Below are positions 1 to 14,603 of a stretch of DNA of 28,909 nucleotides, piece after piece. Position numbers and translations under genes: made by a program. The notes under the pieces were generated by a model, which worked only from the letters and a program-made list of their open reading frames with translations, was not told the origin of the DNA and did not search any database. Source of the stretch: a virus; the IMG/VR virus record IMGVR_UViG_3300025425_000111, positions 1 to 28,909 of that record; one strand, given 5' to 3'. Within the stretch, counting starts at the first letter, position 1; each line of letters begins with the position of its first letter.

Positions 1-30
1 GACACTAGAACAGCAGTAGCTGCTTCGTAG
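1..30 (+). CDS. 3' end of an upstream gene (possibly major capsid protein)
   Basis: Frame 1 is open from the first base and stops at a TAG at 28-30, giving the C-terminal residues DTRTAVAAS. The other two forward frames stop within the first 20 bases. The gene is cut by the window edge. By position, immediately before a stable hairpin and a run of small virion and neck genes, the capsid protein is a natural guess. Nine residues cannot establish that. Confidence 0.4.
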   Translation, partial: DTRTAVAAS

Positions 31-42
31 TTTAAATAATTT

Positions 43-64
43 AAGAGCTCCTTCGGGAGCTCTT
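43..64 (+). terminator. Perfect 9-bp hairpin with UUCG loop after the upstream gene
   Basis: AAGAGCTCC (43-51), TTCG loop (52-55), GGAGCTCTT (56-64): a perfect 9-bp stem closed as C(UUCG)G, an exceptionally stable tetraloop. Only a short T-rich tail follows (TACT), so it may be a partial terminator or an mRNA-protecting 3' end rather than a full stop. It lies 13 bases after the stop codon of the upstream gene and just before the AAGGAG ribosome site of the next, suiting differential expression of a highly expressed upstream gene. Confidence 0.65.
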
Positions 65-80
65 TACTAAGGAGAATAAA

Positions 81-398
81 ATGGGTTCATATAAAGCAGA
101 CATACAAGCAACAAGAATTGCAGGAGCAACTACCAATGTAATCGTAGCACCACCTGTAAGACTAAGAGGAATTGTTGTTGCAGGACTAGCAACGTCCGGT
201 ACTGTTATTTTAAAAACTACCAGTGCAACTGGAGACACATTATTCCAAGCGGATGTCCCTGCAGGAGATATTATTAATTTTTCTTTTCCTGAAGATGGAA
301 TTTTATTTCCAAAAGGAGTTTATGTTTCTACTTTTACAGTAGCTGCAGTTACTTTATTAACAGATAAATATTCTGGTCCAGGTCTAACAGCAGGGTAG
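81..398 (+). CDS. Small virion protein, 105 aa
   Basis: A 105-residue protein, MGSYKADIQATRI..., with a strong AAGGAG ribosome site 5-10 bases before the ATG. It is rich in V, T, G and A, with alternating hydrophobic residues typical of a small beta-sandwich, and has no signal peptide or membrane segment. Its position between the presumed capsid gene and the neck genes suggests a head-decoration or small structural protein. No catalytic motif is visible. Proteins of this look are common in marine podovirus structural modules, usually unannotated. The next gene's ribosome site (TAGGAG) overlaps its stop codon, so the two are translated as a unit. Confidence 0.75.
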   Translation: MGSYKADIQATRIAGATTNVIVAPPVRLRGIVVAGLATSGTVILKTTSATGDTLFQADVPAGDIINFSFPEDGILFPKGVYVSTFTVAAVTLLTDKYSGPGLTAG

Positions 399-406
399 GA
401 GTCTAA

Positions 407-1357
407 ATGACTAACATTACTTCCGGCACATATACTTGGGATAAGAATTTCTTCATTGATGACGTTATCACGGAAGCTTTTGAAAGATTAGGATTAAATC
501 CTATGTCTGGAAATAACATGAGAACTTCTAGACGTTCTTTAAATATTTTATTTTCAGAATGGGGAAACAGAGGTCTTAAATTTTGGGAAGTAGAAAATAA
601 TTCTTTTACTTTAGTTCAAGGTCAAATCGTTTATAATTTTTATAGATCTCCTTCTGATGGAACTTCCAGTGGGGTTTTCAATAGTTTATCCGCAGCCATT
701 AATGATACAGCGACCACTATTCCTTTAAATTCTTTAGTAGGGTTTCCTACTTCTGGAACTATTTTAATTGGAACAGAACAGATTACTTACTCAGGACAAA
801 ATTCAGACACTACTAGTTTAACCGGAGCCACTCGTGGCGCGAATAGTACTTCCGCAGCTAGTCACGCGGATGATGATGTCGTATACGACCATGCAACTAT
901 TTTATATGGTTATGACGATATGTTAGAAGCTTCTTATAGAAATTCTACTCAAGTAGATTTTCCTTTGACTAAAATTGACAGATCAACCTATCAAGGTTTA
1001 TCGGCTAAGTCTCAACAAGGAACTCCTACTCAATATTTTGTTCAAAGACTTATTGATAGAGTATCGGTTACTTTATATCTAGCACCTAGTGCTACGGAAG
1101 CAGGAAATACTATTAACTTCTTTTTTGTAAAAAGAATACAAGATGCAGGATCGTACACGAACGCTTCGGATATAGTGTATAGATTTGTTCCGGCAATGTG
1201 TTCAGGACTTACTTATTATTTAGCACAAAAATTAGCACCTCAACGTGTACAAGAATTAAAATTATTATACGAGGATGAATTACTAAGAGCTTTACAAGAA
1301 GATGGTTCTTCTGCTAGTTCTTATATTAGTCCACGAACTTATTACCCAGGAGTCTAA
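407..1357 (+). CDS. Head-tail adaptor/neck protein (P22 gp4-like), with beta insert
   Basis: 316 residues. The N-terminal helical part (about residues 15-65: FIDDVITEAFERLGL, then RRSLNILFSEWGNRGL) and the C-terminal helical part (about 260-305: YYLAQKLAPQRVQELKLL) match the pattern of phage connector/tail-accessory proteins of the P22 gp4 type, which sit between portal and tail. Between them, residues about 95-165 form an inserted beta module with the motif GFPTSGTILIGTEQITYSG and a TRG...SHADDD segment, an insertion seen in many marine phage virion proteins. The ribosome site TAGGAG overlaps the previous stop codon. The assignment as adaptor rests on helix pattern and gene order, so the exact family is inferred. 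Confidence 0.7.
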   Translation: MTNITSGTYTWDKNFFIDDVITEAFERLGLNPMSGNNMRTSRRSLNILFSEWGNRGLKFWEVENNSFTLVQGQIVYNFYRSPSDGTSSGVFNSLSAAINDTATTIPLNSLVGFPTSGTILIGTEQITYSGQNSDTTSLTGATRGANSTSAASHADDDVVYDHATILYGYDDMLEASYRNSTQVDFPLTKIDRSTYQGLSAKSQQGTPTQYFVQRLIDRVSVTLYLAPSATEAGNTINFFFVKRIQDAGSYTNASDIVYRFVPAMCSGLTYYLAQKLAPQRVQELKLLYEDELLRALQEDGSSASSYISPRTYYPGV

Positions 1358-1959
1358 TGACTAATTTATCGAGAGGAAAATTTGCACAATTTATTTCCGA
1401 TAGAAGTGGTATGGCATTTCCTTACAAAGAAATGGTAGTAGAGTGGAATGGAGCAAGAGTTCATACTTCTGAGTTTGAATCAAAACAACCTCAATTAAAT
1501 CCAAGACCAGCAGGTACCGATGCACAAGGTTTACAATTTGCTAGACCCGATCGTAAAGAACCACCGGTTACTGTGTTATTAGTTCCTAATCCATTTGAAA
1601 CTATTTTATATTCTGGAAGTACTTATATTAATGTAAACTCTCAAAATCATGGATTAAGCACTGGCAATACAGTTCGATTTAGAGGTTTAGCAGGTAGTCC
1701 TCCTACCGGTCCTATTATACCTGATCCAACTAATGATAACGATTTATATTACTTTAATCCGATTCCTACTTTTGACTCAATCAGTGACATTGATAATGAA
1801 AACGGTTATACTATTACCGTAGGACAAATAAATTCTTCTGGAATTGTAGGAGATGTTTTAAATTATTATTATTTCCAAATACCGGGAACGGCTACTTTTG
1901 GAAATGTACAAGGAGGAGGAATTGGCTGTAGTTCAGGACCAATTACTTTACAACCATAA
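1357..1959 (+). CDS. Virion structural protein of unknown role (neck region), 200 aa
   Basis: 200 residues starting in a TAATG overlap with the gene before and ending in the same kind of overlap with the gene after, so the three are translationally coupled. AGGAG precedes the ATG. The N-terminus (GKFAQFISDRSGMAFPYKEM) is strongly charged. Residues about 90-110 carry the HGL-x2-G (here HGLSTGNTVRFRG) pattern of an immunoglobulin-like beta module also present in the 8211 gene. No enzymatic motif is visible. Placement between two adaptor-like proteins argues for a neck or tail-tube component. Function not recognised beyond structural. Confidence 0.65.
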   Translation: MTNLSRGKFAQFISDRSGMAFPYKEMVVEWNGARVHTSEFESKQPQLNPRPAGTDAQGLQFARPDRKEPPVTVLLVPNPFETILYSGSTYINVNSQNHGLSTGNTVRFRGLAGSPPTGPIIPDPTNDNDLYYFNPIPTFDSISDIDNENGYTITVGQINSSGIVGDVLNYYYFQIPGTATFGNVQGGGIGCSSGPITLQP

Positions 1960-2624
1960 TGACATATGCAGAATTAGTACAAAAAATTAGAGATTATTGT
2001 GAAGTAGATGCCAATGTATTTACCTCTACTATTGTAGATGGCTTTCTTTCAGATACTGAATTTAGACTTTTAAGAGACGTAGACTCTGATAATAATAGAC
2101 AATATGCACAAGCAGATATTATAGCAGGGCAACGATTTGTAAGTACCCCTCTTATTAATAATCAAACTTTAATAATCAGGTCTTGTCAAATTACTAACTC
2201 TACCGGTGGAGCAGATAATTCAGATAGATATTTTTTAGATTTTAGGGATACCAGCTTCATGTCGGAGTATGATCCTACTGGAGTACAAGGATTACCTAGA
2301 TATTACAGTTATTGGGATGAGAACACCATTGTGGTGGCTCCTACCCCAGATATAAATTATAACATGCAGATAAATTATATCTTGAAACCAGAGGGATTAT
2401 CTAGTAGTAATACCACTACATACTTAAGTACAGAATTTCCTAATGGCTTATTGTATGCATGCCTAGTAGAGGCTTTTGGATTTTTAAAAGGTCCAGCTGA
2501 TATGATTCAATATTATGAAGGTAAATATCAACAAGCTCTACAAGGATTTACAATTGAGCAAATGGGAAGAAGACGAACTGATGAATTCCAAACAGGAGTT
2601 CCGAAAGTCGGAAAACAAAAATAA
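1959..2624 (+). CDS. Second neck/adaptor-like protein, 221 aa
   Basis: 221 residues with N-terminal helices (MTYAELVQKIRDYCEVD, then FLSDTEFRLLRDVD), a beta-rich middle, and a C-terminal helical end (YACLVEAFGFLKGPADMIQ, then YEGKYQQALQGF). This layout matches the head-tail connector/adaptor proteins common in marine and T7/P22-like phages, and parallels the 407 gene in overall pattern. The start overlaps the preceding stop (TAATG) with no clear ribosome site of its own, so translation probably depends on re-initiation. It is followed by AAGGAG for the next gene. The structural role is likely; which connector layer it forms cannot be told. Confidence 0.7.
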   Translation: MTYAELVQKIRDYCEVDANVFTSTIVDGFLSDTEFRLLRDVDSDNNRQYAQADIIAGQRFVSTPLINNQTLIIRSCQITNSTGGADNSDRYFLDFRDTSFMSEYDPTGVQGLPRYYSYWDENTIVVAPTPDINYNMQINYILKPEGLSSSNTTTYLSTEFPNGLLYACLVEAFGFLKGPADMIQYYEGKYQQALQGFTIEQMGRRRTDEFQTGVPKVGKQK

Positions 2625-2634
2625 GGAGTAAACT

Positions 2635-3075
2635 ATGGCTATAACACAAGCGGTTGCAAACAGTTTTAAACAAGAACTACTAGAAGGGGAACATACGTTT
2701 CAATTTTCTGGTGGTGATACTTTTAAACTTGCTCTGTACACTTCTGATGCAACGTTAAATTCTACTACTACGGCATATGCTTCTACCAATGAAGTTCCAA
2801 ATTCTGGACAATATGCTGCCGGCGGTGGAACCTTAGTAAAACCAAATCCAAGTACTTCAGTCTCATCAGGTGTTGCGATTGTTGATTTTGCAGATTTATC
2901 TTTTACGGGTGTAACGATCACAGCTAGAGGAGCTTTAATTTATAATACTTCATCGACTAACAAAGCGGTGGCAGTATTAGATTTTGGTGCAGACAAAGCA
3001 GCGACTTCAGGAACTTTTACAATTCAGTTTCCAGCATTTACCACTTCAGCAGCTATTCTAAGAATCGGCAACTAA
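2635..3075 (+). CDS. Conserved phage virion protein, 146 aa
   Basis: 146 residues with an ATAAGGAG ribosome site 7 bases before the ATG. The pattern MAITQAVANSFKQELLEG, then DTFKLALYTSDATL, TARGALIYN and a C-terminal AAILRIGN is one I recognise as recurring in marine podoviruses and myoviruses as an uncharacterised structural protein. It has no membrane segment or catalytic motif and looks all-beta after one N-terminal helix. The position just before the fibre-like genes suggests a tail or baseplate component. Role inferred from neighbours. Confidence 0.75.
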   Translation: MAITQAVANSFKQELLEGEHTFQFSGGDTFKLALYTSDATLNSTTTAYASTNEVPNSGQYAAGGGTLVKPNPSTSVSSGVAIVDFADLSFTGVTITARGALIYNTSSTNKAVAVLDFGADKAATSGTFTIQFPAFTTSAAILRIGN

Positions 3076-3091
3076 TAGGAGCTAACCTATT

Positions 3092-3955
3092 ATGGTCAAT
3101 ACTTGGGGTACACTAACCTGGGGAATAAACAGCTGGGGAGAACAAAGTGATGTAAGTATATCTGTCACTGGTACTCAATTAAGTACGTCTCAAGGAGACG
3201 TAACTACTACTGTAGAATTAAATTCAGGATGGGGAAGAGAACTCGGTTGGGGTACTCTTGACTGGGGAAACAATTCTATATCTACTCAAGTTCCTATTAC
3301 CGGTTCACAATTAAATTTAGATCTTGGAGATACTACATTAGATCTTTTGACAATTGCTTCACCAACAGGTGTTACTGCTGCTTTTGCATTAAGTTCTGTA
3401 GACGCTTCACCGGATGCTATGGCATCTGGAAATCAAATCCCACTTTCTTTAGGAGATGCTATTGGTAAAACCGATGTAGCATTTAATGTTACCGGTAATG
3501 AATTATCTATTGTCTCTGGCACCGCGACGCTCGATGCTATTACCTTTGCAGATTTAACTGGTTTTGTTTTAGAAACCGATACTGGAAATGTAGTCATAGG
3601 AGGTATTGCAAATATACCGGTTGTAGGAAATGAATTATCAACAGCTGTAGGAACCGTAGATGTAGCACCGGATGTGGCTTTAACCGGTCAACAAATAAGT
3701 GCTACTTTAGGAACCGCTGTTTTAGATGCCAATACTCTAGTAGATGTTACTGGACAACAGATTAATACGACTGCAGGAAGTGTTACTTTTACGATCTCAG
3801 GATCCGTACTATTAACAGGAAATCAGTTAACTTTAGAGCTTGGAAATGAAGTGTCTCAGATATGGACAATCGTTGACACAGGCACCTCTGTAGCGTATAC
3901 TGAAGTTTCTACCGGATCTAATGTCACTTGGAATAATATTGACACAGCCGCATAA
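3092..3955 (+). CDS. Repeat-rich tail/fibre protein (22-residue T-G repeats), 287 aa
   Basis: 287 residues with three architectures in order. Residues 5-15 and 47-59 are tryptophan-glycine motifs (WGTLTWGINSWG; GWGTLDWG). Residues 26-257 carry a 22-residue repeat beginning TG-x-[QE]-[LI]-x4-G, seen at residues 26, 70, 92, 112, 134, 156, 178, 198, 220 and 242. Residues 258-287 carry an 11-residue repeat with W258, Y269 and W280 in register (for example YTEVSTGSNVT). The regular beta period suggests a solenoid or stacked fibre shaft. GGAGC lies upstream of the ATG. No enzyme motif is visible; the fibre role is inferred from repeats and neighbours. Confidence 0.75.
   Translation: MVNTWGTLTWGINSWGEQSDVSISVTGTQLSTSQGDVTTTVELNSGWGRELGWGTLDWGNNSISTQVPITGSQLNLDLGDTTLDLLTIASPTGVTAAFALSSVDASPDAMASGNQIPLSLGDAIGKTDVAFNVTGNELSIVSGTATLDAITFADLTGFVLETDTGNVVIGGIANIPVVGNELSTAVGTVDVAPDVALTGQQISATLGTAVLDANTLVDVTGQQINTTAGSVTFTISGSVLLTGNQLTLELGNEVSQIWTIVDTGTSVAYTEVSTGSNVTWNNIDTAA
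3164..3955 (+). repeat. Protein-level tandem repeat, 66-bp period turning into 33-bp period
   Basis: Repeat starts (T-G or S/V-G) at residues 26, 70, 92, 112, 134, 156, 178, 198, 220 and 242 of the 3092 gene are spaced 20-22 residues apart, apart from one double interval at the W-rich insert. The last 30 residues show aromatic residues exactly 11 apart (W258, Y269, W280). The copies have diverged at the DNA level, so this is an old protein repeat and not a recent DNA duplication. Confidence 0.8.
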
Positions 3956-3993
3956 TTTGAATAAAAACTATTAATTAAGGAATTATATAAAAT

Positions 3994-4998
3994 ATGCCAT
4001 CAAGCTATTCTGGAGATTTAAAACTAGAACTCATGGTCACTGGTGAAAAAGCCGGTCTATGGGGAGATATTACTAATACCAATTTAAACATCGTACAACA
4101 AGCCATTGCTGGTTATGAAGCAATTCCATTAAATGCGACTACCGGTGTAACTTTAACTTTTTCCAATGGAACTATTTCTGATGGTAAAAATGCAGTTCTT
4201 GATTTAACAGGAACGATTACTACTTCTGTTAATGTTATTATTCCAGATGCAATTGAAAAAACCTATATCGTTAGAAACTCAACTTCAGGAGCTCATGACG
4301 TAGTAGTTAAAACAGCGTCTGGTACGGGAGCTACCTTTAGTACTACTGATAAAGGTACTAAATTATTGTATTCTGATGGAACTAATGTTGTGGATACAGG
4401 TTTAACTGCAGGTATTACAGCGGTTGTTCAAGATACCTCTCCACAGCTCGGTGGTATGTTAGATGTTAATACATTTGGTTTAGGTGATGGAACTTTACAA
4501 CTCTTAAACTTTACAGAAACCGCAAGTGCAGTTAATGAATTTACTATTACAAATAATGCAACAGGTTCTGCACCTATTTTATCTGCGACAGGGGATGACT
4601 CTAATATTGGAATAACTTTAACTCCTAAAGGAACAGGGGTAGTTGATGTTACTGGCACACTGCTAGCTGACAAAGCATACTTAGCTGAAACCACTTTAAC
4701 AGATGGTGCTACGATTGATTGGGATATGGCAACACAAGCTGTGTCCGCAGTAACACTCGGTGGAAACAGAACTTTAAACGCACCTACCAATGGAAGTACA
4801 GGTCAATTTGCTTCTCTATTAGTTATTCAAGATGGAACTGGCGGAAGAACTATTACATGGAACGCAATATATGAATTTGCAGCGGATACTGCACCAACAT
4901 TAACAGCAACAGCTAGTCTTGGAGATGTATTTACTTTTAGATACAATGGAACAAAATGGTTAGAAGTTGGAAGAAATTTAGCATTAACTTTATCATAG
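3994..4998 (+). CDS. Tail fibre-like structural protein, 334 aa
   Basis: 334 residues. The N-terminus (GEKAGLWGDITNTNLNIVQQ, about residues 18-37) is the WG-x2-TN-x-N pattern found at the start of many marine phage fibre and structural proteins. The middle is Thr/Gly/Ala-rich beta sequence with a VQDTSPQLGGMLD segment (about residues 145-158). The C-terminus (about 240-334) has QDGTGGRTITWN, then FTFRYNGTKWLEVGRN, a terminal beta domain typical of marine phage fibres and a likely surface-contacting end. An AAGGAA ribosome site lies upstream at longer than usual spacing. Adsorption or fibre-shaft role inferred from domain pattern. Confidence 0.75.
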   Translation: MPSSYSGDLKLELMVTGEKAGLWGDITNTNLNIVQQAIAGYEAIPLNATTGVTLTFSNGTISDGKNAVLDLTGTITTSVNVIIPDAIEKTYIVRNSTSGAHDVVVKTASGTGATFSTTDKGTKLLYSDGTNVVDTGLTAGITAVVQDTSPQLGGMLDVNTFGLGDGTLQLLNFTETASAVNEFTITNNATGSAPILSATGDDSNIGITLTPKGTGVVDVTGTLLADKAYLAETTLTDGATIDWDMATQAVSAVTLGGNRTLNAPTNGSTGQFASLLVIQDGTGGRTITWNAIYEFAADTAPTLTATASLGDVFTFRYNGTKWLEVGRNLALTLS

Positions 4999-5005
4999 GA
5001 ATATT

Positions 5006-5662
5006 ATGTACACATTAGTCATAGACGAAACAATCACAAAATACTTTAGTTACCCTAAAGGATTTACTCTTAATGGTAATCAATACCCAGCAGACATATT
5101 TAGTAAATGGTCTGTAGCTGAAAAAGAAGCTATTGGAATTTATGAAGTAGTCTTTGATAGTTCTAATAAAAAAGATGAAGACTATTACATTAATACAAAT
5201 CAATCTTTTAATTATGCAGATGGAGTAGTTACTGCTTCTTATGGAACTGCTGTTGGTAAAAAACTAACAGACACGAATGAAGTTTGGACACAAGAAGATG
5301 TAGATAACGAAAGCTCACCAGAAGGTGCTTCTGCAGGTGATCCTATGAATGATGAAAAAGGCAATCAAATTGTAACCACTGGTTTAAAAACAAAATACAA
5401 AACAGGTTTTAATTTAGAAGCAGCTGGTCTATTAGCTCCTACAGATTGGTATGTGGTTAAGGCAACCGAAGTTTCAGATTATTCAGTACCTAGTGCTGTT
5501 ACTACTTACAGAGCAGCAGTTAGAACTAAAGTCAATGCAATGGAAACTGCAATAGATAATTGTGCCAATGTAAATACTCTTATAACTTTACTTACCTACA
5601 CAATGCAAGATGATGGTACAGTTACTAGACCTCTTGGAGAATTTCCAAAAGAGGTAGTTTAA
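5006..5662 (+). CDS. Fibre-associated protein with tail-assembly-chaperone-like C-terminus, 218 aa
   Basis: 218 residues. The C-terminal third (about 145-200: APTDWYVVKATE, then VPSAVTTYRAAVR followed by a short helix) resembles the W-x-[VI]-RK/KA...P...YR-x2-[VL]R pattern of phage tail-fibre assembly/chaperone proteins and DUF4376-type domains. The N-terminal part (MYTLVIDETITKYFSYPKG) is not recognised. TAGGAATATT precedes the ATG. Lying directly before the LamG/SPRY gene, it may help that fibre fold or attach. Codon use (ACT rather than ACC, no CCGG) matches the next two genes rather than those outside, so it probably travels with the receptor-binding cassette. Function moderately supported. 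Confidence 0.65.
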   Translation: MYTLVIDETITKYFSYPKGFTLNGNQYPADIFSKWSVAEKEAIGIYEVVFDSSNKKDEDYYINTNQSFNYADGVVTASYGTAVGKKLTDTNEVWTQEDVDNESSPEGASAGDPMNDEKGNQIVTTGLKTKYKTGFNLEAAGLLAPTDWYVVKATEVSDYSVPSAVTTYRAAVRTKVNAMETAIDNCANVNTLITLLTYTMQDDGTVTRPLGEFPKEVV

Positions 5663-5663
5663 T

Positions 5664-7109
5664 ATGCCTTTTATCTTACCAGCTAACTCTCTATCAGCAG
5701 GTGGTTATACAGTAGATAATTCTTTACGATTTAATTCTGCTAGTTCAGATTATTTATCAAAAGTTCCAACTACAGGGACTAATAGAAAAATACAAACTTT
5801 TTCAACATGGGTTAAAAAATGTCAAAACCCTGACGGTGATAATACATTATTCTTAAGTTATTATTCTATAGATGAAAGAATAAAGATATTATTTGATAGT
5901 TCTCAACGACTAAGTATCGGTAATAGAAGTGGTGGTAGTAACACAATAATTTTAGTTACAAATAGATTATTTAGAGATGTATCAGCTTGGTATCATATTG
6001 TAGTTGCTATGGACACTACACAAGCAACAGCTTCTAATAGAGTTAAAATATATGTTAATGGAGTTCAAGAAACTTCTTTTGTTACAGCTATTTATCCTTC
6101 ATTAAATGAAGACTTAAGACTTGGTACAAGTTCATATACCTATTATTTAGGTTCTTATGGAGGAAGTTCAGGGTATTTAGACGGCTACATGTCTGATGTT
6201 TATGGTATAGATGGTCAAGCATTAGCACCTACAGACTTTGGAGAATTTGATGAAGATAGTGGAATATGGAAACCAATAGATGTTTCTGGATTAACCTTTG
6301 GTACTAACGGATTCTATTTAGACTTTGAAGATAGCGGTGCTTTAGGTGCAGATACATCAGGTAATGGTAATGATTTTACAGTTAATAATTTAACAGCAGT
6401 AGACCAGACTACCGACACACCTACTAATAATTTTGCAACCATGAATCCTTTAGATAATTATTATGCTAGTGCTCTTTTTGCAGAAGGCAATATAAAACTT
6501 ACAACTGATGCTAGTGCAGAAGCTATGAGTACAGCAACTTTTGCTGTATCTGCTGGTCGTTGGTATTTTGAAGTTGATTGTATTTCAATAGGTGCTAGTG
6601 GTACAGCAAATCTTGGTGTAACTGCAACACCTTCTCATCAAAACTCTTCTTATGGAAAATCTGGGGGTGTTACACCTTTTACTCATACTTGGAATAAAAG
6701 TGGAACATTACAATCAGGTAATGGATCTGGTGGTAGCATTACTCTTGCTACATTAAGTTCATATGCTGCTGGAGATATTTTAGGAGTTTATCTTGATCTT
6801 GAAGATATGAAAACTTATTGGAGTAAAAATGGTACACTTGAAAATAGTGGAACTGGTATTGCTTTAACTGCTTTGGCAAGTAATGGAACAGGTCATTATA
6901 TTCCATTTGTAGGAGATTATAATACTGGTGGTGCGGCTGTATTTGAAGTTAATTTTGGTAATGGTTTTCAAGCTTTAGCAGACACAGCAATAGCAGATGA
7001 TAATGGATATGGTGCGTTTGAATATTCGCCAAACATTACTGGAGATGGTGCAGCAAAAAAATTTTATGCACTTTGTACAAAAAACTTAAATGAGTTTAAT
7101 TATGACTAA
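5664..7109 (+). CDS. Receptor-binding protein with LamG-like and SPRY-like domains, 481 aa
   Basis: 481 residues starting two bases after the previous stop. Residues about 40-170 form a LamG/concanavalin-type lectin domain (TFSTWVKK near the start, WYHIVVAMD, VKIYVNGVQETSF, then the YLDGYMSDVYGIDGQ segment usual in marine phage copies). Residues about 275-450 form a SPRY-like domain (GRWYFEVDC, LGVYLDLEDMKTYWSKNG, YIPFVGDY, FEVNFGNGFQAL). Both folds bind glycans or proteins, which fits host recognition. There is no signal peptide, and the fibre position between two small structural genes agrees. The carbohydrate target is unknown. Codon use differs from the neck genes, suggesting exchange as a cassette. 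Confidence 0.85.
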   Translation: MPFILPANSLSAGGYTVDNSLRFNSASSDYLSKVPTTGTNRKIQTFSTWVKKCQNPDGDNTLFLSYYSIDERIKILFDSSQRLSIGNRSGGSNTIILVTNRLFRDVSAWYHIVVAMDTTQATASNRVKIYVNGVQETSFVTAIYPSLNEDLRLGTSSYTYYLGSYGGSSGYLDGYMSDVYGIDGQALAPTDFGEFDEDSGIWKPIDVSGLTFGTNGFYLDFEDSGALGADTSGNGNDFTVNNLTAVDQTTDTPTNNFATMNPLDNYYASALFAEGNIKLTTDASAEAMSTATFAVSAGRWYFEVDCISIGASGTANLGVTATPSHQNSSYGKSGGVTPFTHTWNKSGTLQSGNGSGGSITLATLSSYAAGDILGVYLDLEDMKTYWSKNGTLENSGTGIALTALASNGTGHYIPFVGDYNTGGAAVFEVNFGNGFQALADTAIADDNGYGAFEYSPNITGDGAAKKFYALCTKNLNEFNYD

Positions 7110-7136
7110 ATCAATTAACGCACAGGAGTACAGCTA

Positions 7137-8168
7137 ATGGCACAAATAAATAAACCCTCAGATTATTTTAATACTAAACTTTACACTGGTACTGGTGCTA
7201 CACAATCAATAACTGGGGTCAACTTCACCCCAGACCTTACATGGATTAAAGGTAGAAGTGGTGCAACTGAGCATGTATTAACAGATTCAGTAAGAGGAGT
7301 AACAAAAGAATTAAGTTCAAATGATACTGGTGCAGAAGAAACTGTAGCACAAGGATTAACAGCTTTTGGTACAGATGGTTTTACAGTTGGTACAGATGGC
7401 TCTTATAATACAAGTTCAGCAACTTACGCATCTTGGAATTGGTTAGGTGGTGGTTCAGCATCATCTAATTCTGATGGTTCAATTACTTCTAGTGTTTCAG
7501 CTAATACAACCGCTGGATTTAGTATTGTAAGTTATACGGGTAATTTAACTGCTGGTGCAACTATTGGACATGGGTTAGGTGTTGCACCTTCAATGGTAAT
7601 AGTTAAAAATAGAGCTGTTGCGGCATGGGATTGGACTTGTTATCACTCAAGTTTAGGTAATACTAGAAGAATTTTTTTAAACAGTACTAGTGCTGGAGAT
7701 ACATCAATTGGTGGGTGGAATAATACTACTCCATCTAGTTCAGTAGTTACTCTTGGTGCTGGAAACGAAACCAATAATAATAATACTATGATAGCTTACT
7801 GCTTTGCAGAAATTAAAGGCTACTCAAAATTTGGCTCATACACAGGGAACGGAAATGCTGATGGTACATTTATATACACAGGATTTAAACCAGCTTTTAT
7901 AATGTTTAAAGATACAGGTTATGCATCAAATTGGTCTATGTTTGACAATAGACGAGCAGGTTATAATAGTAAATCAGATATTCTTGCTCCAAATACAAAC
8001 AGTACTGAAGATACATCTAATACAACTTTTGCTGATTTCTTATCCAATGGTTTTAAATGGAGATTTACTAATGCAGACTTTAATGCTTCAGGAAACAATT
8101 ACATCTACATGGCATTTGCTTCTTCTCCTTTTGTAACTTCAACAGGAATACCAGGAACAGCAAGATAA
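7137..8168 (+). CDS. Marine phage fibre/adhesin-like protein (DUF7483-type), 343 aa
   Basis: 343 residues with a CAGGAG ribosome site. It opens with INKPSDYFNTKLYTGTGA and a VNFTPDLTWIKGRSG segment. Later it has a GFSIVSYTGNLTAGATIGHG and GVAPSMVIVKNR stretch (about residues 127-160), and a second, similar unit FIYTGFKPAFIMFKD (about 240-255). This duplicated ...GF-P-[FM]-[VI]-[FV]K pattern is characteristic of uncharacterised marine phage fibre proteins (I believe Pfam DUF7483, from memory). It ends MAFASSPFVTS. No catalytic residues are apparent. It forms the last gene of the 5006-8168 cassette and is likely a co-receptor-binding or fibre-tip protein. Function inferred. Confidence 0.75.
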   Translation: MAQINKPSDYFNTKLYTGTGATQSITGVNFTPDLTWIKGRSGATEHVLTDSVRGVTKELSSNDTGAEETVAQGLTAFGTDGFTVGTDGSYNTSSATYASWNWLGGGSASSNSDGSITSSVSANTTAGFSIVSYTGNLTAGATIGHGLGVAPSMVIVKNRAVAAWDWTCYHSSLGNTRRIFLNSTSAGDTSIGGWNNTTPSSSVVTLGAGNETNNNNTMIAYCFAEIKGYSKFGSYTGNGNADGTFIYTGFKPAFIMFKDTGYASNWSMFDNRRAGYNSKSDILAPNTNSTEDTSNTTFADFLSNGFKWRFTNADFNASGNNYIYMAFASSPFVTSTGIPGTAR

Positions 8169-8210
8169 AACATCTTTATTTTAGGTTCAAAAGGTATTAT
8201 AAATACTATT

Positions 8211-10151
8211 ATGCCATTACAGAAGATACAATTTAAGCCTGGATTCAACAAACAACAGACCGAAACCGGTGCCGAAGGGCAATGGGTAGACGGTGATAAC
8301 GTACGTTTTAGATACGGCCAACCTGAAAAAATAGGTGGTTGGGAAGAATTAGTTAACTCTACCATAGCAGGACCTGTCAGAGGACAACACACTTGGACTG
8401 ATTTAACTGGTGTTCGATACGCAGCACTAGGTACTTCTAAAGTGCTAGTTATTTATTATGAAGGAGCGTTTTATGATATTACTCCTTTAGAGACCCCTAT
8501 TACAGGATTTACCTTTACTTCTACTACTGGATCAGCAACCGTTACGGTTAATAAAGTAGCTCATGGAGTTGCAAACGGTTCTTATATTATTTTTACTAGT
8601 ATTACCTTACCTACTGGGGGTGAAACAGGTTTTTCAGCTAGTCAATTTACTAACAATACTTATGAAGTTACTTCCACAGATGATGATGATTTTACTATTA
8701 CTATGTCTACTACCGAATCTGGTTCAGGTATGTCTACTCAAGGTTCTGCAACGGTTACGCCTTATGTAACCATTGGTCCTGTATTTGAAACCCCCGCTTA
8801 TGGATTTGGAACCGGTCCTTATGGAAGAGAAGCATGGGGAACTGCACGATCTGCTTCTACCGTGGTCTTAGATCCTGGCTCCTGGTCGCTCGATAACTAT
8901 GGACAGTTGTTAGTTGCAACTGCTAGAAACGGTTCTACCTATACTTGGACTCCTTTAGCAGGAGAGCCTGCAGCATTAGAAACGAGAGCTGCTATCGTAG
9001 CAGATGCTCCTACTAGATCATTAATGAGTTTAGTTTCTGACAGAGATAGACATTTATTTTTAATGGGAACCGAAACTACTGTCGGAGATGCTTCTACACA
9101 AAACAAAATGTTGGTACGTTTTTCTAATCAAGAAGATATTAATACTTGGGCTCCTACCGCGACTAATACAGCAGGTACTTTCTTGCTTGACCAAGGAAAT
9201 GAAATCGTAACAGCCGTACAAGGAAAAGATTATGTATTAGTGTTAACCGATCAAGCAGCTTATGTAATACAATTTGTGGGAACTCCTTACACTTTTTCAT
9301 TAAGACAAGTTGGTTCCAACTGTGGATGTTTAGGGCAACACACTGCCGTCTATGCACAAGGAGCGGTGTACTGGATGGGTTTTGGTGGTGGATTTTTTAT
9401 GTACGATGGAACGGTAAAACAACTTCCATCCTTAGTAGAAGATTTTGTATTTACCACTCAAGGAGATGGATTAGGAATTAATTATGATGCTAATCAAATT
9501 ACCTATGGATATCACAACTCATTATTTAATGAAGTGGGTTGGTACTATGCAGCGAGCGGCTCGCAACAAATTAATAGGAATGTAGTATATAACTTTATCG
9601 AACAAAGTTGGACTACCGGTTCTTTATCTAGAACTACCTATAATGATGCTACTACCTATGATTTACCCTACGCTACTGAATTTACTACTAATGGAACTCC
9701 GAGCTTCCCAGCCATTCAAGGGGTAACCAATAGATATGGTTCTTCTCAGTACTGGGCTCAAGAAACAGGGACCAATGAAGTAACCGCTGGAGGATCTACT
9801 ACTGCTATTGCTTCTTATATTTTGTCAGGGGATTATGATATTTCCGAACAAGGAATTGCAGGAGATGGTGAATATATTATGAGAGTATCTAGATTTATAC
9901 CAGACTTTAAAAACTTAAGTGGAAATGCAAAAGTAACCATGTTCTTTACTAACTATCCAGCCACCGATTCACAATCATCTGCTTCAGGATCTTTAATTAC
10001 TGGTCCTTTTACTATTAGTACCACTACTAATTTTGTAAGCACTAGGGTTAGAGGTAGGCAGGTTAGTTTAAAAATAGAAAACGATGGTCAGGATGAAACT
10101 TGGAGATATGGAACCTTGAGGTTAGATATTCATGCAGGAGGAAGAAGATAA
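8211..10151 (+). CDS. Large tail/stabilisation protein (P22 gp10-like hub), 646 aa
   Basis: 646 residues. The N-terminus (KIQFKPGFNKQQTETGAEGQ, then WVDGDNVRFRYGQPEKIGGW) is the hallmark start of a large tail protein family common in marine podoviruses, often annotated as packaged-DNA stabilisation protein like P22 gp10. Residues about 98-170 are an inserted beta module with AHGVANGSYIIF, related to that in the 1357 gene. The middle (about 260-450) has repeated beta blades such as DRDRHLFLMGTE, GKDYVLVLTDQAAYVIQF and GAVYWMGFGGGFFMYDG, consistent with a beta-propeller. The ribosome site is weak, with AAAGG about 15 bases upstream. Likely a tail hub below the neck. It ends in TAATG with the next gene. 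Confidence 0.75.
   Translation: MPLQKIQFKPGFNKQQTETGAEGQWVDGDNVRFRYGQPEKIGGWEELVNSTIAGPVRGQHTWTDLTGVRYAALGTSKVLVIYYEGAFYDITPLETPITGFTFTSTTGSATVTVNKVAHGVANGSYIIFTSITLPTGGETGFSASQFTNNTYEVTSTDDDDFTITMSTTESGSGMSTQGSATVTPYVTIGPVFETPAYGFGTGPYGREAWGTARSASTVVLDPGSWSLDNYGQLLVATARNGSTYTWTPLAGEPAALETRAAIVADAPTRSLMSLVSDRDRHLFLMGTETTVGDASTQNKMLVRFSNQEDINTWAPTATNTAGTFLLDQGNEIVTAVQGKDYVLVLTDQAAYVIQFVGTPYTFSLRQVGSNCGCLGQHTAVYAQGAVYWMGFGGGFFMYDGTVKQLPSLVEDFVFTTQGDGLGINYDANQITYGYHNSLFNEVGWYYAASGSQQINRNVVYNFIEQSWTTGSLSRTTYNDATTYDLPYATEFTTNGTPSFPAIQGVTNRYGSSQYWAQETGTNEVTAGGSTTAIASYILSGDYDISEQGIAGDGEYIMRVSRFIPDFKNLSGNAKVTMFFTNYPATDSQSSASGSLITGPFTISTTTNFVSTRVRGRQVSLKIENDGQDETWRYGTLRLDIHAGGRR
9549..9564 (+). repeat. 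GCAGCGAGC word, copy 1, with palindrome
   Basis: GCAGCGAGC (9549-9557) in the gp10-like gene; the same bases extend into GCGAGC-G-GCTCGC (9552-9564), a short palindrome. Other copies: 14078, 19407 and 27249. Confidence 0.5.
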
Positions 10152-10315
10152 TGGCAAAAATTACTGCAGTGATTCCAGAACCAAGAGAAGAATATGATGT
10201 GTTTAATCAACGACAGTTGAACGAAGGGTTGAATACATTAAAGAATGAGTTAAACTTTGGTTATCAAAAAGATTTAAAAAATGAACAAGCGCAAATAGAA
10301 TGGTTTTTAACGTAA
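10151..10315 (+). CDS. Small virion-module protein, 54 aa
   Basis: 54 residues, MAKITAVIPEPREEYDVFNQ..., starting in a TAATG overlap with the gp10-like gene. A longer in-frame reading from 10100 exists, but those extra residues lie wholly inside the preceding gene, and GGAGGAAG sits just before the 10151 ATG, so the short form is preferred. The middle is predicted helical and charged (QRQLNEGLNTLKNELNFG), perhaps a coiled coil. It is directly abutted by the next gene. Small proteins of this kind recur here in marine podoviruses; function unknown. Confidence 0.7.
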   Translation: MAKITAVIPEPREEYDVFNQRQLNEGLNTLKNELNFGYQKDLKNEQAQIEWFLT

Positions 10316-10651
10316 ATGGCAAATTTTTTTAAAAGCAATACATTTGATTTAACCACTACTAATGTAACTATTGTATTATCCGTAAGTACTTCTTCTGTAG
10401 CTATTGTTAAAACGGTACAAGCGGTTCATGATACTGCTAGTAATGTAGATACAGATCTTTTTCTTACTAAGAATGGTGCAAGTGCGGTTCAAATAGGTCA
10501 TGCACAATTAAATAAATCTACTGCAAATCTATTAGTAGATACCTTGAATTTAGAAGCAGGAGATGCTATAAGCGTGCAAGCGAGTACTGCTGATGCCGTT
10601 AGCGGAGCAGTGTCTTACATGTTAATAGACAGATCACAAGAGAATGGATAA
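10316..10651 (+). CDS. Small beta-rich virion protein, 111 aa
   Basis: 111 residues whose ATG follows the previous TAA with no gap. It has alternating hydrophobic beta strands (TTNVTIVLSVSTSSVAIVKT; DTDLFLTKNG; LEAGDAISVQAS) and ends SYMLIDRSQENG. Size and composition resemble the 81-398 protein, although I see no clear sequence identity. No catalytic or membrane motifs. Placed between a tail hub and glycosyltransferases, it is probably a small structural or decoration protein. No separate ribosome site, so translation is likely coupled to the 54-residue gene. Confidence 0.7.
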   Translation: MANFFKSNTFDLTTTNVTIVLSVSTSSVAIVKTVQAVHDTASNVDTDLFLTKNGASAVQIGHAQLNKSTANLLVDTLNLEAGDAISVQASTADAVSGAVSYMLIDRSQENG

Positions 10652-10823
10652 AATAGAAACGACCACGAAACACACCTTTAGAAGTAAGTCTACTAATAAG
10701 ACGTATGAAACAAAGGAACAGTTTTTACAACATCATGCTGAAGACGATTTAGCAGTCGATACAGCAGTGACCGTTACCAATGAAGGATTAAATCTTTTAC
10801 AGAAAATAATGGGACAAAAATAA
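10644..10823 (+). CDS. Small hypothetical protein, 59 aa
   Basis: ATG at 10644 overlaps the end of the previous gene by 8 bases and the frame runs to a TAA at 10821-10823 that itself overlaps the next ATG (TAATG). The translation, MDKIETTTKHTFRSKSTNKT then YETKEQFLQHHAEDD..., is 59 residues, hydrophilic, with a charged N-terminal half and a C-terminal amphipathic segment (NEGLNLLQKIMGQK). The perfect fit between two overlapping start/stop junctions and the absence of any other frame across this gap support a real gene. An AGAG stretch precedes the ATG. Function unknown. Confidence 0.7.
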   Translation: MDKIETTTKHTFRSKSTNKTYETKEQFLQHHAEDDLAVDTAVTVTNEGLNLLQKIMGQK

Positions 10824-11758
10824 TGCAGCCACTTGGTGGAACCGAACTGCAAATGCAGTTCTTAGAAAGACATGTAGATAAAGAACTATTAGATCAAGTT
10901 CAAATTACTACTTCCGTTCCTGAAAAAATTCCTTTGTCTAAAGATAAAGTAAATATCTTATGGCAACATAATTCATATGATCAAGCTAATTTAGCACCTT
11001 GGTTTAAAGATACTTCGAATCATTCTAAATATGATTGGTATGTATTTAATTCTCATTGGAACTATGAAAAATATAGAATGCATTTTGATATTCCTACCGA
11101 ACGATGTTTGGTTATTAAAAACGGAATTCCAGAAATTACACCTAGAAATTTAGTTTACAAAAAAGGGGATCCCATCAAACTTATCTTTCAACCTACTCCT
11201 TGGAGAGGATTGAATGTGATACTAGCAGCAATGCAAATGATTCAAAATCCCCTCATCACCTTAGATGTTTATTCTTCTACCGAAATTTACGGAGATCAAT
11301 TTAAACAAGCAAACAATCAACAATTTGAAGGTTTGTTTGAACAAGCAAAAAAATTATCCAATGTTAATTACATTGGATATAAATCGAATGAGTATATTGT
11401 AGATCAATTAAAAAACTATCATATTTTTGCCTATCCTAGTATCTTTGAAGAGACCTCTTGCGTCTCGGCGCTCGAAGCTATGTCGGCAGGACTCTATTGT
11501 ATTACTACCAATTATGGAGCTTTATATGAAACGTGTGCAGAATATGCGGCCTATATTCCTTATCAAAAATCGTATGCAAATTTAGCTAAAAATTTTGCCT
11601 ATGCTATTGAAACAGCGGTAGGTAATTTAGACAACGAGATTGTTCAAAAACATTTACAAGATCAAATTATTTATACTAACCGATTTTATAACTGGACTCG
11701 TATTGGTTCGTTATGGAATAACTTTTTAAAAGGAGCTATCAATGCAAGATCCAAGTAA
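10823..11758 (+). CDS. Glycosyltransferase, GT-B fold (GT4-like), 311 aa
   Basis: 311 residues. The N-terminus starts at the glycine-rich loop PLGGTE, and the C-terminal half has a VKNG-type hinge (CLVIKNGIPE, about residue 95), the sugar-nucleotide strand KLIFQPTPWRGLN (about 119-131), and FEETSCVSALEAMSAG, in which E210 and E218 form the E-x7-E signature of GT-B retaining enzymes. Donor and acceptor are unknown. The first beta strand usually found before the GGTE loop is missing, and no start codon upstream in frame restores it, so the domain may be naturally trimmed or slightly defective. It overlaps the next glycosyltransferase by 17 bases, implying joint action, perhaps glycan modification of virion or host surface. 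Confidence 0.85.
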   Translation: MQPLGGTELQMQFLERHVDKELLDQVQITTSVPEKIPLSKDKVNILWQHNSYDQANLAPWFKDTSNHSKYDWYVFNSHWNYEKYRMHFDIPTERCLVIKNGIPEITPRNLVYKKGDPIKLIFQPTPWRGLNVILAAMQMIQNPLITLDVYSSTEIYGDQFKQANNQQFEGLFEQAKKLSNVNYIGYKSNEYIVDQLKNYHIFAYPSIFEETSCVSALEAMSAGLYCITTNYGALYETCAEYAAYIPYQKSYANLAKNFAYAIETAVGNLDNEIVQKHLQDQIIYTNRFYNWTRIGSLWNNFLKGAINARSK

Positions 11759-12572
11759 ACCTATCTGGGTAAAAGATAACAAAAAAGAAGTACCTAATGT
11801 AAGTAAACTACCTTCTATCTTTGTAGCTACTCCGGTTCATAGCGAATGCTCTATTCATTACACTCAAGCGTTATTAGCATTTCAACAAAAATGTATGGTC
11901 AATGGTATTCTAGTTTCTTTTTCTTTATTAAAATCTTCTTTAGTAACGCAAGGTAGAAACTTATGTGTCAATGCGTTTATGGAAGAATTTGAAAAACATC
12001 CCTACACTCACATGTTATTTATTGATTCCGATATTGAGTTTTCTTTTGATACCATTATGAAATTAGTAGCAGCAGAAAAAGATGTAATAGCTGCTCCTTA
12101 TCCATTAAAAGATTTAGACTGGAATAAGATTGCTAATAGAATTAAATATAAAAATATACAAGACGGTGCTACTATGTCTAAACAAGGATTTACTTGGCCG
12201 TTAAAATTAGATGGAAAGAATCAAATAACTGCAATCAATGGAGTAGCAGAAGTAAGTCATGCTCCTACCGGATGTATGTTAATTAAAAAAGAAGTGTTTG
12301 ATACCATGATTGAGAAGTTACCAGAATTAAAAATTAATCAACCCACTATTGTTAATGGTGAAATGGTTGAGAAGAAGTTTATGTACAACTTCTTTGATTG
12401 TTATCATGAACCAGAAACCAAAAAGTACTACGGAGAAGACTTTGGATTCTGTAAAAGATGGGCTGAAATAGGTGGTAAATGTCACATTTTAGTGGATGAA
12501 TATATTACTCATATAGGTGAGTATCGATATACCGGTAGGTTTATGGATGATCTTGATTTTAAAAAAGATTGA
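11742..12572 (+). CDS. Glycosyltransferase, GT-A type with DSD motif, 276 aa
   Basis: 276 residues. The start is fixed by AAAGGAG 6 bases upstream, inside the end of the previous gene. SIFVATPVHS opens the nucleotide-binding fold, HMLFIDSDIEF contains the metal-binding D-x-D (D95-S96-D97), and the C-terminal GEDFGFCKRW (from residue 231) plus the later THIGEYRYTG segment match phage GT-A family transferases of the GT2/Anp1-like kind. The acceptor is unknown. It pairs with the GT-B enzyme upstream. Both lie inside a virion gene block, so modifying a structural protein or masking host surface glycans are both possible. It ends in a TGA embedded in a candidate promoter for the next gene. Confidence 0.85.
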   Translation: MQDPSKPIWVKDNKKEVPNVSKLPSIFVATPVHSECSIHYTQALLAFQQKCMVNGILVSFSLLKSSLVTQGRNLCVNAFMEEFEKHPYTHMLFIDSDIEFSFDTIMKLVAAEKDVIAAPYPLKDLDWNKIANRIKYKNIQDGATMSKQGFTWPLKLDGKNQITAINGVAEVSHAPTGCMLIKKEVFDTMIEKLPELKINQPTIVNGEMVEKKFMYNFFDCYHEPETKKYYGEDFGFCKRWAEIGGKCHILVDEYITHIGEYRYTGRFMDDLDFKKD

Positions 12573-12597
12573 CCTATACTGTAAAAACAAGTAAAGT
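12553..12597 (+). promoter_or_regulatory. Candidate sigma70-type promoter(s) before the ejection-protein block
   Basis: Two overlapping candidates lie at the start of the largest intergenic gap. TTGATT (12553-12558) with a 16-base spacer to TATACT (12575-12580) matches consensus well at the -10. TTGACC (12569-12574) with a 17-base spacer to TAAAGT (12592-12597) matches well at the -35, and contains the stop TGA of the preceding gene. Either would fire the genes from 12652 on. Sequence match only. Confidence 0.4.
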
Positions 12598-12651
12598 ATG
12601 TATTTTCAGGACTTTTGCGCCTGCTTCATTACTAACAATATTTAAAGGATT

Positions 12652-13719
12652 ATGATATCTAGATCACAGATGAGCAGACAATTATATCAAAACGGCGGAA
12701 TTATGGGCGTAGCAAGAGAGAACTACGGCTTTGGAAGTAAATTTAAAAAATTCGTAAGGAACATTATACCTAATGAAATAGCAGATATTGCAGTGAAAGC
12801 TGCACCGTTTGTTGCACCTTTTCAACCAGGTATTGCAGCAGCAATGAGAGGTATTGGAAGATTTGATCAACGAGGAAGTATCAGCGATGCTGTAAAACAA
12901 GCGGGAGCAACGTATGGTTTTGGAAAAGCAACTGGTGCAGATGGTTTGAATGTACCGGGAATGTTTGGAGGAGAAGTCCAAGCAGGAACTGGAGATACAT
13001 CTTCTTTTTTTGATAGACTTGGTGGTAATATTTCAGGAGGAGTTGACGGGATTACTAATTTAATACCTGAATCTGTAAAAAGCATAGACATACTAGAGAG
13101 TATTCAAAGCGGAGCTTCTAGTGTAGGAGAATTTATTTCACAAGGATTTAACTCATTAATGAATGCTGATCCAAAAACATTGCAAGAGTTGTTTAAAGCA
13201 GCTACTTACCTTGCAGGTACGACTTTAAGTTACTTAGATCAAAAAAGAATTAATAAATTAAGAGAAGAAATTCAAGCAAAATTTGAAGCCGCTCAAGCAG
13301 GTAAACGAGCACAATATAATCCAGGTGAAGCAACCAATGCTCCTAGAGCATCTTTTACTGCAGCCGATGTAGTACGAGCACCTGCAATGAATGGTGGAAG
13401 AATGGGTTATGCATATGGAAATTCAGTACAAGACGGAATTATGTCAGCTCCTCAAATAGCAGATCAAATGGGAATGCCGGTAGGTAACCCTAGACAAAAT
13501 CAACAAGGAATTGCAGAACTAGATTATAGAGATCAGGGTGGATTTGTTCCGCCAATTGGTATAAAAGAAAAGGAGGATGATATCCCTGCGATGTTATCTA
13601 ATAACGAATTTGTATTTACAGCCGATGCAGTAAGAAATGCAGGCGGTGGAGACACTAACTTAGGTGCTCAGAAAATGTATTCTATGATGAAACAACTTGA
13701 AAACGGAGGAAGTGTTTAA
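12652..13719 (+). CDS. Internal virion protein with conserved C-terminal LSNNEFVFTADAV module, 355 aa
   Basis: 355 residues from 12652, but AAAGG is very close to this ATG, and a second in-frame ATG at 12670 (MSRQLYQNGG) matches the usual start of this family, so the true start may be 12670. Residues about 30-75 are hydrophobic and helical (IADIAVKAAPFVAPFQPGIA). The C-terminus (about 310-350: DDIPAMLSNNEFVFTADAVR, then GAQKMYSMMKQLE) is a module I recognise as widespread in marine podovirus and cyanophage virion proteins. It is followed by other ejection-type proteins, so a DNA-ejection or internal core role is likely. It overlaps the next gene by one base (TAATG). Confidence 0.75.
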   Translation: MISRSQMSRQLYQNGGIMGVARENYGFGSKFKKFVRNIIPNEIADIAVKAAPFVAPFQPGIAAAMRGIGRFDQRGSISDAVKQAGATYGFGKATGADGLNVPGMFGGEVQAGTGDTSSFFDRLGGNISGGVDGITNLIPESVKSIDILESIQSGASSVGEFISQGFNSLMNADPKTLQELFKAATYLAGTTLSYLDQKRINKLREEIQAKFEAAQAGKRAQYNPGEATNAPRASFTAADVVRAPAMNGGRMGYAYGNSVQDGIMSAPQIADQMGMPVGNPRQNQQGIAELDYRDQGGFVPPIGIKEKEDDIPAMLSNNEFVFTADAVRNAGGGDTNLGAQKMYSMMKQLENGGSV

Positions 13720-14603
13720 TGGCTTATAATATTACTACCCCTGCTCCTTTTTTAGAACCAGCGGGTGAACGAATAACAGATCTTACCATAGATCAAATTA
13801 ACCAACCAGTTAATATAGGTGGAATGGCGCCTAAGGTTTCCCAAGTTAATCCATTAATTCAAGCATCTCAACAAAGAACCGCAACGCAAGCAGGATTAGG
13901 ATCCTTACAATTTTCTCCTCAAGGAGATGTAACAGGAGTAGGCGCTGGAACCGGTGTTGCAGCATATCAACCTTATTTACAAGCAGCAGAAGATTTAGCT
14001 GCGCCAAGTGCATATCAATCGTATATGTCTCCGTATCAAACAGAAGTCATTGACGCGACTCAAGCACTAATGAACGAGCAGCGAGCGTCAGGGTTAAATA
14101 CATTACGAGGAGGTCAATATGCACAAGGAGCTTATGGACAAGGACGAGGACAAATTGGAGAAGCAGAATATTTAAGAGGTAGAGATATTTCAGATGCAGG
14201 ACAGCTAGCGGCACTAAGACAACAAGGTTTAACACAAGCACAAAGTTTACAACAACAAGGTTTACAAAATCAATTAGGTTTTGGTCAACAACAACAAGCT
14301 TTTGAATCAGGTATCACCGGACAATTAGGGGCTACAGGTGCAGGAGCGCAAAATTACTCTCAATCTATTCTAGATGCTATTCAACAAGGAAATATTTTAC
14401 AAGAACAATATCCACTACAAAGGTTAGGAACTGCTTCAGGTATATATGGAACAATTGCAAGTGGTACACCTCAAAGCCCTCAACAACCGATTATGACTAG
14501 CCCTGGTTTAGCAGCATCACAAACGTTAGCTAATTTATATGGAATGTTCAATCCAAGACCAACAGCTGCTTACGGTGGATTAATGTCATTGATGGGTAGG
14601 TAA
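13719..14603 (+). CDS. Gln-rich internal virion protein, 294 aa
   Basis: 294 residues. N-terminal residues are mainly loop (APFLEPAGERITDLT). Residues about 100-200 are helical and glutamine-rich (YMSPYQTEVIDATQALMNEQ, then QQGLTQAQSLQQQGLQNQLG with QQGL repeats at about 167-190). The YMSPY-x2-[EQ]VID motif is a recurring feature of marine podovirus internal proteins. The C-terminus ends AYGGLMSLMGR. No enzymatic motif. It starts in a TAATG overlap with the previous gene and is followed 2 bases later by the next. A T7 gp14/gp15-like ejection role is inferred from position and composition. Confidence 0.75.
   Translation: MAYNITTPAPFLEPAGERITDLTIDQINQPVNIGGMAPKVSQVNPLIQASQQRTATQAGLGSLQFSPQGDVTGVGAGTGVAAYQPYLQAAEDLAAPSAYQSYMSPYQTEVIDATQALMNEQRASGLNTLRGGQYAQGAYGQGRGQIGEAEYLRGRDISDAGQLAALRQQGLTQAQSLQQQGLQNQLGFGQQQQAFESGITGQLGATGAGAQNYSQSILDAIQQGNILQEQYPLQRLGTASGIYGTIASGTPQSPQQPIMTSPGLAASQTLANLYGMFNPRPTAAYGGLMSLMGR
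14078..14086 (+). repeat. GCAGCGAGC word, copy 2
   Basis: GCAGCGAGC in the Gln-rich virion gene, within a longer CGAGCAGCGAG (14075-14085) shared exactly with the 27246-27256 copy. It uses GAG, CAG, CGA and GCG codons, which are unusual for this genome. Confidence 0.5.

Follow-up and report, generated by a model that had tools for sequence, protein, structure and literature searches.

The window analysed here is the whole stretch of 28,909 bases of the IMG/VR virus record IMGVR_UViG_3300025425_000111 (positions 1 to 28,909), and the element in question lies between the start of a tail fibre gene (3994-4998) and the start of a virion gene at 8211. At this one site, near-clonal phages carry either of two cassettes: allele A, in the window, or allele B, in the contigs L003, L004 and L006. 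As a whole, positions 4123 to about 8264 very probably represent a cassette for host recognition, located at a hypervariable site and swapped through homologous crossovers within the conserved genes on either side.

Concerning the phage itself, the best named relatives of gene 8211 are found in the Pelagibacter phages HTVC023P and HTVC027P (56 and 55% protein identity), with which the window also shares the order fibre, variable genes, gene 8211 and glycosyltransferase. From this resemblance, the window phage appears to be a pelagiphage related to both, and its host is likely to belong to SAR11. Pelagiphages infect SAR11, which is among the most abundant marine bacteria and, to our knowledge, the determinants of their host range are hardly known. 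The window contains no tRNA, and its use as a query in a nucleotide search of the phage collection returned no match. The comparisons were conducted on 80 loci, each encoding a relative of gene 8211 (five of them at 100%), and on a further set of 80 loci with a relative of the chaperone (tfa) gene.

Two cassettes between the same flanks

L003, L004 and L006 align to the window at about 97.6% over 44-4395 (1-4395 for L006) and again over 8210-19949, and show no similarity to 4396-8209 in the nucleotide alignment; in all three, an unrelated segment of 4.9-5.4 kb replaces the window from ~4123 to ~8210. Between L003 and the window, there is one mismatch in 44-3243 and none in 8411-10610, and the other differences cluster in patches at about 10611-11610, 15611-16410 and from 19611 onward. 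The patch at 10611-11610, with 113 mismatches in 1 kb, lies over a glycosyltransferase open reading frame (ORF; 10823-11758) and the stretch before it. L002, another contig of the window phage, has the same cassette (99.99%) and is the only one of the nine records searched in which the full cassette is present, and L005 is a fragment carrying the right part of allele B. That genes had been exchanged here as a block, as the initial annotation proposed with breakpoints near 5000 and 8170, is borne out by these near-clonal relatives, which hold a different cassette between the same flanks; the left edge had to be moved, to ~4122 (about fibre codon 43).

On the left, the step falls after 4122, i.e. 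after codon 43 of the fibre gene. Codons 1-43 (3994..4122, plus strand, as are the cassette genes and gene 8211) encode a conserved N-terminus, which shares 100% of its amino acids (aa) with L003, L004 and L006 and 88% with a further contig, L135, and which would serve as the left homology arm. Codons 44-334 (4123..4998) form the exchanged fibre tip, fused in frame to this N-terminus. The tip consists of two parts, 4123-4395 being still backbone-type sequence and 4396-4998 cassette-type: the L003 alignment stops at 4395, and identity is already at 0.58-0.78 per 60 nucleotides (nt) from about 4123. Codons 1-43 are more identical than codons 44-86 in all 32 relatives compared (means of 0.80 vs. 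0.66). The outer left edge of the swap is inside the fibre gene, after codon 43, and not at 5006.

On the right, the exchanged block ends with the intergenic stretch 8169..8210. It is followed by a conserved virion gene (8211..10151; phrog_3287, virion structural protein, E 2.7e-76), whose first ~55-60 nt would act as the right homology arm. Mean identity over the 150 nt before the ATG at 8211 is 0.36 (null 0.33), vs. 0.79 after it, in 74 relatives. Over the first 200 nt of this gene, L003 differs from the window at five positions, all at 8216-8264, and at none later until past 10610; such a short diverged run beside the cassette is what a crossover within the 5' end of gene 8211 would leave, and the right crossover appears to sit just inside the gene, after 8264. 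The replacement is bounded by fibre codons 1-43 on one side and by ~18 codons at the start of the following virion gene on the other and, since the identity steps recur in 32 (left) and 74 (right) relatives, the same two borders frame variable content throughout the group. Directly before gene 8211, a hairpin-like motif, GCTAGGRTAGATT...AATCTRTCCTRGC around CACCACACC, was observed in L003 (about 9428-9470), as well as in L004-L007, L011-L013 and L017, and is absent from the window allele. As a site-specific exchange site at the right border it was rejected, being present in 9 of the 80 loci only.

More than one piece makes up the block. The backbone of L135 clearly differs from that of the window, with 87 and 59% identity in two upstream genes in addition to the 88% over fibre codons 1-43. 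L135 is ~92-100% identical to the window from ~4126, similarity collapsing near 5284, so that the two share only fibre codons 44-334 (98-100% aa) and the start of the chaperone gene, up to about codon 93. An extra breakpoint is located at ~5284, inside the chaperone gene, and it is to this second breakpoint, rather than to the outer edge, that the border placed near 5000 comes close. Because L135 shares only the fibre tip and the chaperone start, these two have moved apart from the LamG/SPRY and DUF7483 genes that follow them in the window.

Genes of the cassette and their recurrence

Allele A codes for the new fibre tip, followed by a tail-fibre-assembly-like chaperone and by one LamG/SPRY and one DUF7483 protein. 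Of the domains recognised in the initial annotation, SPRY was confirmed on closer analysis, and the LamG-like and chaperone-like assignments are plausible. The chaperone-like protein (5006..5662, 218 aa), encoded directly after the fibre gene, matches phrog_4912 (tail fiber assembly, E 1.4e-4), the match spanning just 54 residues. The second protein (5664..7109, 481 aa), a candidate receptor-binding protein with a LamG-like and a SPRY domain, matches Pfam SPRY (PF00622) with E 5.6e-5 and 23.7 bits, just under the gathering cut-off of 26.3, and its AlphaFold2 model (predicted local distance difference test, pLDDT, of 82.7) matches the SPRY domain of RanBP10 (E 2e-9, probability 1.00), as well as those of Ash2L and others, in the PDB; this sub-cut-off profile match together with the B30.2/SPRY fold match carries the SPRY assignment. 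As for the LamG part, no LamG Pfam match was found in this ORF, and in Foldseek the whole two-domain model matched, more loosely than for SPRY, LNS/LamG-type structures, namely neurexin and laminin LG pairs (probability 1.00, root-mean-square deviation, rmsd, of ~12-18).

The third protein (7137..8168, 343 aa), also a candidate receptor-binding protein, covers the full DUF7483 profile (PF24299, 1-330 of 330) with E 2.6e-128 and 428 bits for a cut-off of 27. Its AlphaFold2 model is confident and all-beta (pLDDT 90.7) and has no trusted match in the PDB, the best Foldseek hit having E 3e-4 but an rmsd of 14, and the best VIA hit, not trusted either, a Z of 5.2 with an rmsd of 3.5 over 77 residues. 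Three suspected internal repeats are not claimed for this protein, the pairwise scores being marginal at most (2, 11 and 19 of 300 shuffles scored as high).

Allele B, as found in L003, encodes a short C-terminal part of the fibre, a protein of 120 aa, two Gly_rich_2 proteins, a protein of 162 aa, two 2-oxoglutarate (2OG)-Fe(II) oxygenases and a third protein matching phrog_2954, which is labelled 'ferrochelatase'. The second Gly-rich protein is 296 aa long in L003 (6380-7270) and 111 aa long in L004 (6380-6715) and L006 (6720-7055), with identical ends, so that a large portion of its Gly-rich centre has been lost or gained in frame.

The gene set of allele A recurs in other phages. Among the 80 tfa loci, the order fibre tip (fibC), tfa, lam and duf, or whatever part of it fits the fragment, is nearly universal, and HTVC202P, from another lineage with another backbone, has all four genes in the same order at 45-56% identity (48% for fibC and 54% for the chaperone). 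For fibC, identity reaches 63% with L098 and L099. The LamG/SPRY-DUF7483 pair also comes after the fibre gene in HTVC121P, HTVC204P and Skadi-1; in L085 and L097, it precedes the fibre N-terminus and lies outside the fibre-to-8211 interval, whose length is just 0.6 kb in these two. Since LamG/SPRY and DUF7483 occur in one open frame of ~790-820 aa in L103 (open at its 5' end), L106, L109 and L110, the two separate proteins may well work as one unit. Also, the DUF7483 query matches part of one long annotated protein in each of CRP-406, MEP301 and SS120-1, and in CRP-406 and MEP301 this protein is matched by the LamG/SPRY query as well. Found across several phage lineages, the pair may form a portable adhesin unit.

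Both anchors are present in 35 loci, and Gly-rich ORFs and 2OG-type genes are their usual content; LamG/DUF7483 was found between the anchors only in L002 (the window phage), L065, where the order is LamG, DUF7483 and chaperone, L153 and L154. To explain the LamG/DUF7483 label, the tree of gene 8211 requires three changes or more, the window and L065 being placed apart from each other, each within 2OG-type phages. Such independent gain speaks in favour of exchange.

The 2OG-FeII_Oxy_3 family (PF13640) was detected in 25 of the 32 records scanned, i.e. in all 25 without LamG/DUF7483, all of the window's backbone type. It has no match in the other seven, namely the window, L065 and L135 (as far as this contig goes), which are the LamG/DUF7483 records of this lineage, and L139, L153, L154 and HTVC202P. 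Many of the records are fragmentary and not independent of one another. The related search for PF13759 was negative in the window, L002, L065, L135, L139 and L153, and positive in L003 and L011. It is conceivable, though rather doubtful, that the locus alternates between two non-homologous types of recognition apparatus, one made of Gly-rich adhesins with 2OG-Fe(II) oxygenases of their own, which would be adhesin maturation enzymes, and the other of a tip folded by the chaperone, together with LamG/SPRY and DUF7483 proteins. If they did modify (e.g. hydroxylate) the Gly-rich adhesins, they would be maturation enzymes and not metabolic genes, leaving together with the adhesin. Several observations count against the generality of this reading: PF13640 was found in none of nine other pelagiphages without DUF7483; cyanophage ACG-2014e, one of the ten fetched phage records with DUF7483, has both DUF7483 and a 2OG oxygenase, far apart; and L065 keeps a Gly-rich protein with neither a PF13640 nor a PF13759 match in its 15 kb record. 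A general exclusion of 2OG oxygenases by DUF7483 is unsupported, as the absence of PF13640 from all 50 DUF7483/tfa/LamG records equals the base rate, given the 0 of 9 without DUF7483.

Composition of the cassette

The locus had originally been singled out by its composition. No CCGG occurs in ORFs 5006-5662, 5664-7109 and 7137-8168, and ACCGGT is present at all seven flanking positions that had been named, in agreement with the initial annotation. The statement that Thr-Gly is encoded there only as ACT-GGT or ACT-GGA fails, these two accounting for 7 of the 16 pairs in 5006-8168, the rest being ACA-GGN, ACT-GGG or ACG-GGT. As for the codon shift at the borders, it is real, but it starts before 5006, the C-terminal part of ORF 3994-4998 lying within it.

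The window's longest stretch free of CCGG, 4142-8266 (4124 bp), matches the exchanged block and not 5006-8168. The four cassette frames (4123-8168) have a single CCGG, at 4142, vs. 9.64 expected from the synonymous usage of the backbone, and a count of one or none was reached in 0 of 2000 simulations by synonymous resampling. Taken as the best gap of the window, the result is modest (P = 0.04 under uniform placement), and another gap of 3.1 kb (14317-17423) is present without any exchange of that size; CCGG absence was accordingly set aside as a weak border marker.

The Thr codons ACA/ACC/ACG/ACT number 77/17/5/76 in 4123-8168 vs. 100/128/45/238 in the rest of the window (chi2 51, p 4e-11), and within the cassette the synonymous deviation is highest in the LamG/SPRY (chi2/df 3.08) and DUF7483 (2.70) genes. 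Deviation was also seen outside the cassette, in genes 10823 (2.45), 15443 (2.57) and 25970 (3.67). The second of these (15443-19588) encodes a 1381-aa protein with no Pfam match and an unconvincing best PHROG hit (E 0.03). In the 48 loci with the cassette, the ACA share averages 0.52 vs. 0.50 in their own genomes, the corresponding values for the window being 0.49 vs. 0.19. Allele B departs equally from the shared backbone, and the sound reading is that genes whose codon use resembles that of the pool keep entering this locus, in a backbone rich in ACC. As sole proof of foreign origin, codon usage was rejected, allele B having the same Thr usage and the three non-cassette genes deviating equally; it is of help only when set against the 48 cassette loci. 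The exchange is proven by the relatives, and codon usage alone would not have sufficed.

Outside the locus, the window also encodes a phage-borne S-adenosylmethionine decarboxylase (20442-20840; PF02675, E 4.5e-17).

Exchange, its alternatives and known systems

We infer that co-infecting relatives would recombine by homologous crossover in the two short conserved arms. In this way, the fibre would keep the end by which it attaches to the virion while the adhesins change, and with them probably the range of host strains that the phage can bind. Allele A may first have been built by fusion of a tip-chaperone-LamG/SPRY-DUF7483 module from an HTVC202P-like lineage to a backbone-type fibre, and the block would then have spread among relatives of the backbone.

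An assembly chimera, in which the metagenome assembler placed the fibre-to-8211 interval from one phage between the flanks of a second one, would be a concern, as the near-identical records are all metagenome contigs. It is very unlikely in view of the same junctions at 99.99% in the second contig, L002, of the four intact ORFs with an in-frame fibre fusion, of the fibre tip joined to the chaperone again on the other backbone of L135, and of allele B in three contigs. Diversification in place, i.e. fast evolution of host-recognition genes under selection without exchange, would fit the gradual divergence reported for pelagimyophage islands (PMC7029224), and fibre codons 44-134 do align between the alleles at ~65% aa, as it would leave them. 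The remainder of the two cassettes is, however, non-homologous between flanks with ~0-1 mismatch per kb over long stretches, and the closest relatives of the allele A genes occur in other phage lineages with their order conserved, which makes such an origin extremely improbable.

Programmed switching within one genome, with recombinase-driven inversion or shuffling and both cassettes in each phage, could also produce two alternatives at a single site of near-clonal phages. As far as the contigs, not all of them complete, extend, this hardly deserves credence: the 28.9 kb window contig has no PF13640 or PF13759 gene, no allele B genes were found in L002 and no allele A DNA in the 42.3 kb L003 record, and the family scans run on the proteins of both cassettes named no recombinase. 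Nor was a reverse transcriptase or invertase, as expected for a diversity-generating retroelement or an invertible cassette, among the families named for the cassette proteins, although no search was aimed at them. Finally, the module exchange may be real and serve another role than host range, e.g. virion stability or superinfection avoidance, DUF7483 having no clear fold match and being only a candidate for binding. Such a role is unlikely, as adhesins are suggested by the position on the fibre, by the LamG/SPRY folds and by the presence of a chaperone partner, and the homologous gene pair belongs to the Skadi hypervariable region, to which a role in host recognition has been ascribed.

Homologous exchange of a host-recognition cassette remains the preferred reading, and several points weigh against it in part. 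The left junction is slightly ragged and not a single clean crossover, because of six mismatches to L135 at 4179-4221. Codon usage cannot tell which allele is foreign, because alleles A and B share the same Thr signature (p = 0.94 between them); this signature marks the locus and not the window cassette alone. No donor of the cassette was found among the records compared, its best relatives having at most 72% protein identity, bar the L135 tip, and the direction of exchange could be the reverse, with allele B as the newcomer in the L003 lineage. That the cassette sets host range is a probable role deduced from its genes, and the host itself is assigned solely through the 55-56% protein identity to HTVC023P and HTVC027P. 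A near-clonal pair differing chiefly in one recognition cassette of 4-5 kb constitutes a natural isogenic pair, which names the genes for testing and provides two fusion points, one at fibre codon 43 and one where gene 8211 begins.

Among the named pelagiphages, HTVC023P and HTVC027P resemble the window in backbone gene order and in gene 8211, and differ in the cassette, where they have 2OG-oxygenase genes and no DUF7483 match, whereas HTVC202P resembles it in cassette order and differs in the backbone. In Polarivirus skadi (Skadi-1), the published description, in the parts considered here, gives a hypervariable region at 13,646-15,713 with two ORFs, one called a lectin-domain protein (PMC10504331). 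These coordinates correspond to Skadi1_45 (matched by the DUF7483 query) and Skadi1_46 (SPRY), the homologues of ORFs 7137 and 5664, so that the hypervariable region of Skadi-1, treated there together with HTVC010P-like phages, contains homologues of the DUF7483 and SPRY/LamG genes of the window. Skadi differs by its backbone and by the detection of the region through low read coverage, and not through two near-clonal genomes with mapped crossovers; those parts of the description give no fibre-tip/chaperone boundary.

A large host recognition island has also been described in pelagimyophages (PMC7029224). In the Alteromonas phages A5, V22 and P24, a shared host recognition module made of a tail fibre and its cognate chaperone travels jointly between phages of different morphotype, as the fibre and chaperone do here; from the sections of that report considered (PMC10579305), the phages and hosts are others and the transfers are described as old, whereas the exchange in the window separates near-clonal phages. 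The metaviromic islands of marine phages, under-recruiting regions reported by Mizuno et al. 2014 (PMC3909814), likewise hold, in the portion of that study considered, tail fibre, lectin-like, carbohydrate-binding, tail fibre assembly, Gp38 adhesin and Fe(II)-dependent oxygenase genes. The window locus contains tail fibre, lectin-like and fibre-assembly genes, and is replaced between otherwise nearly identical genomes (L003, L004 and L006 vs. the window); compared with what that portion presents, it offers two complete alternative cassettes on nearly identical genomes, and its crossover zones can be located to within tens of bases. Island-type variation being already known, the locus is a well-resolved further example of it, with unusually sharp edges.

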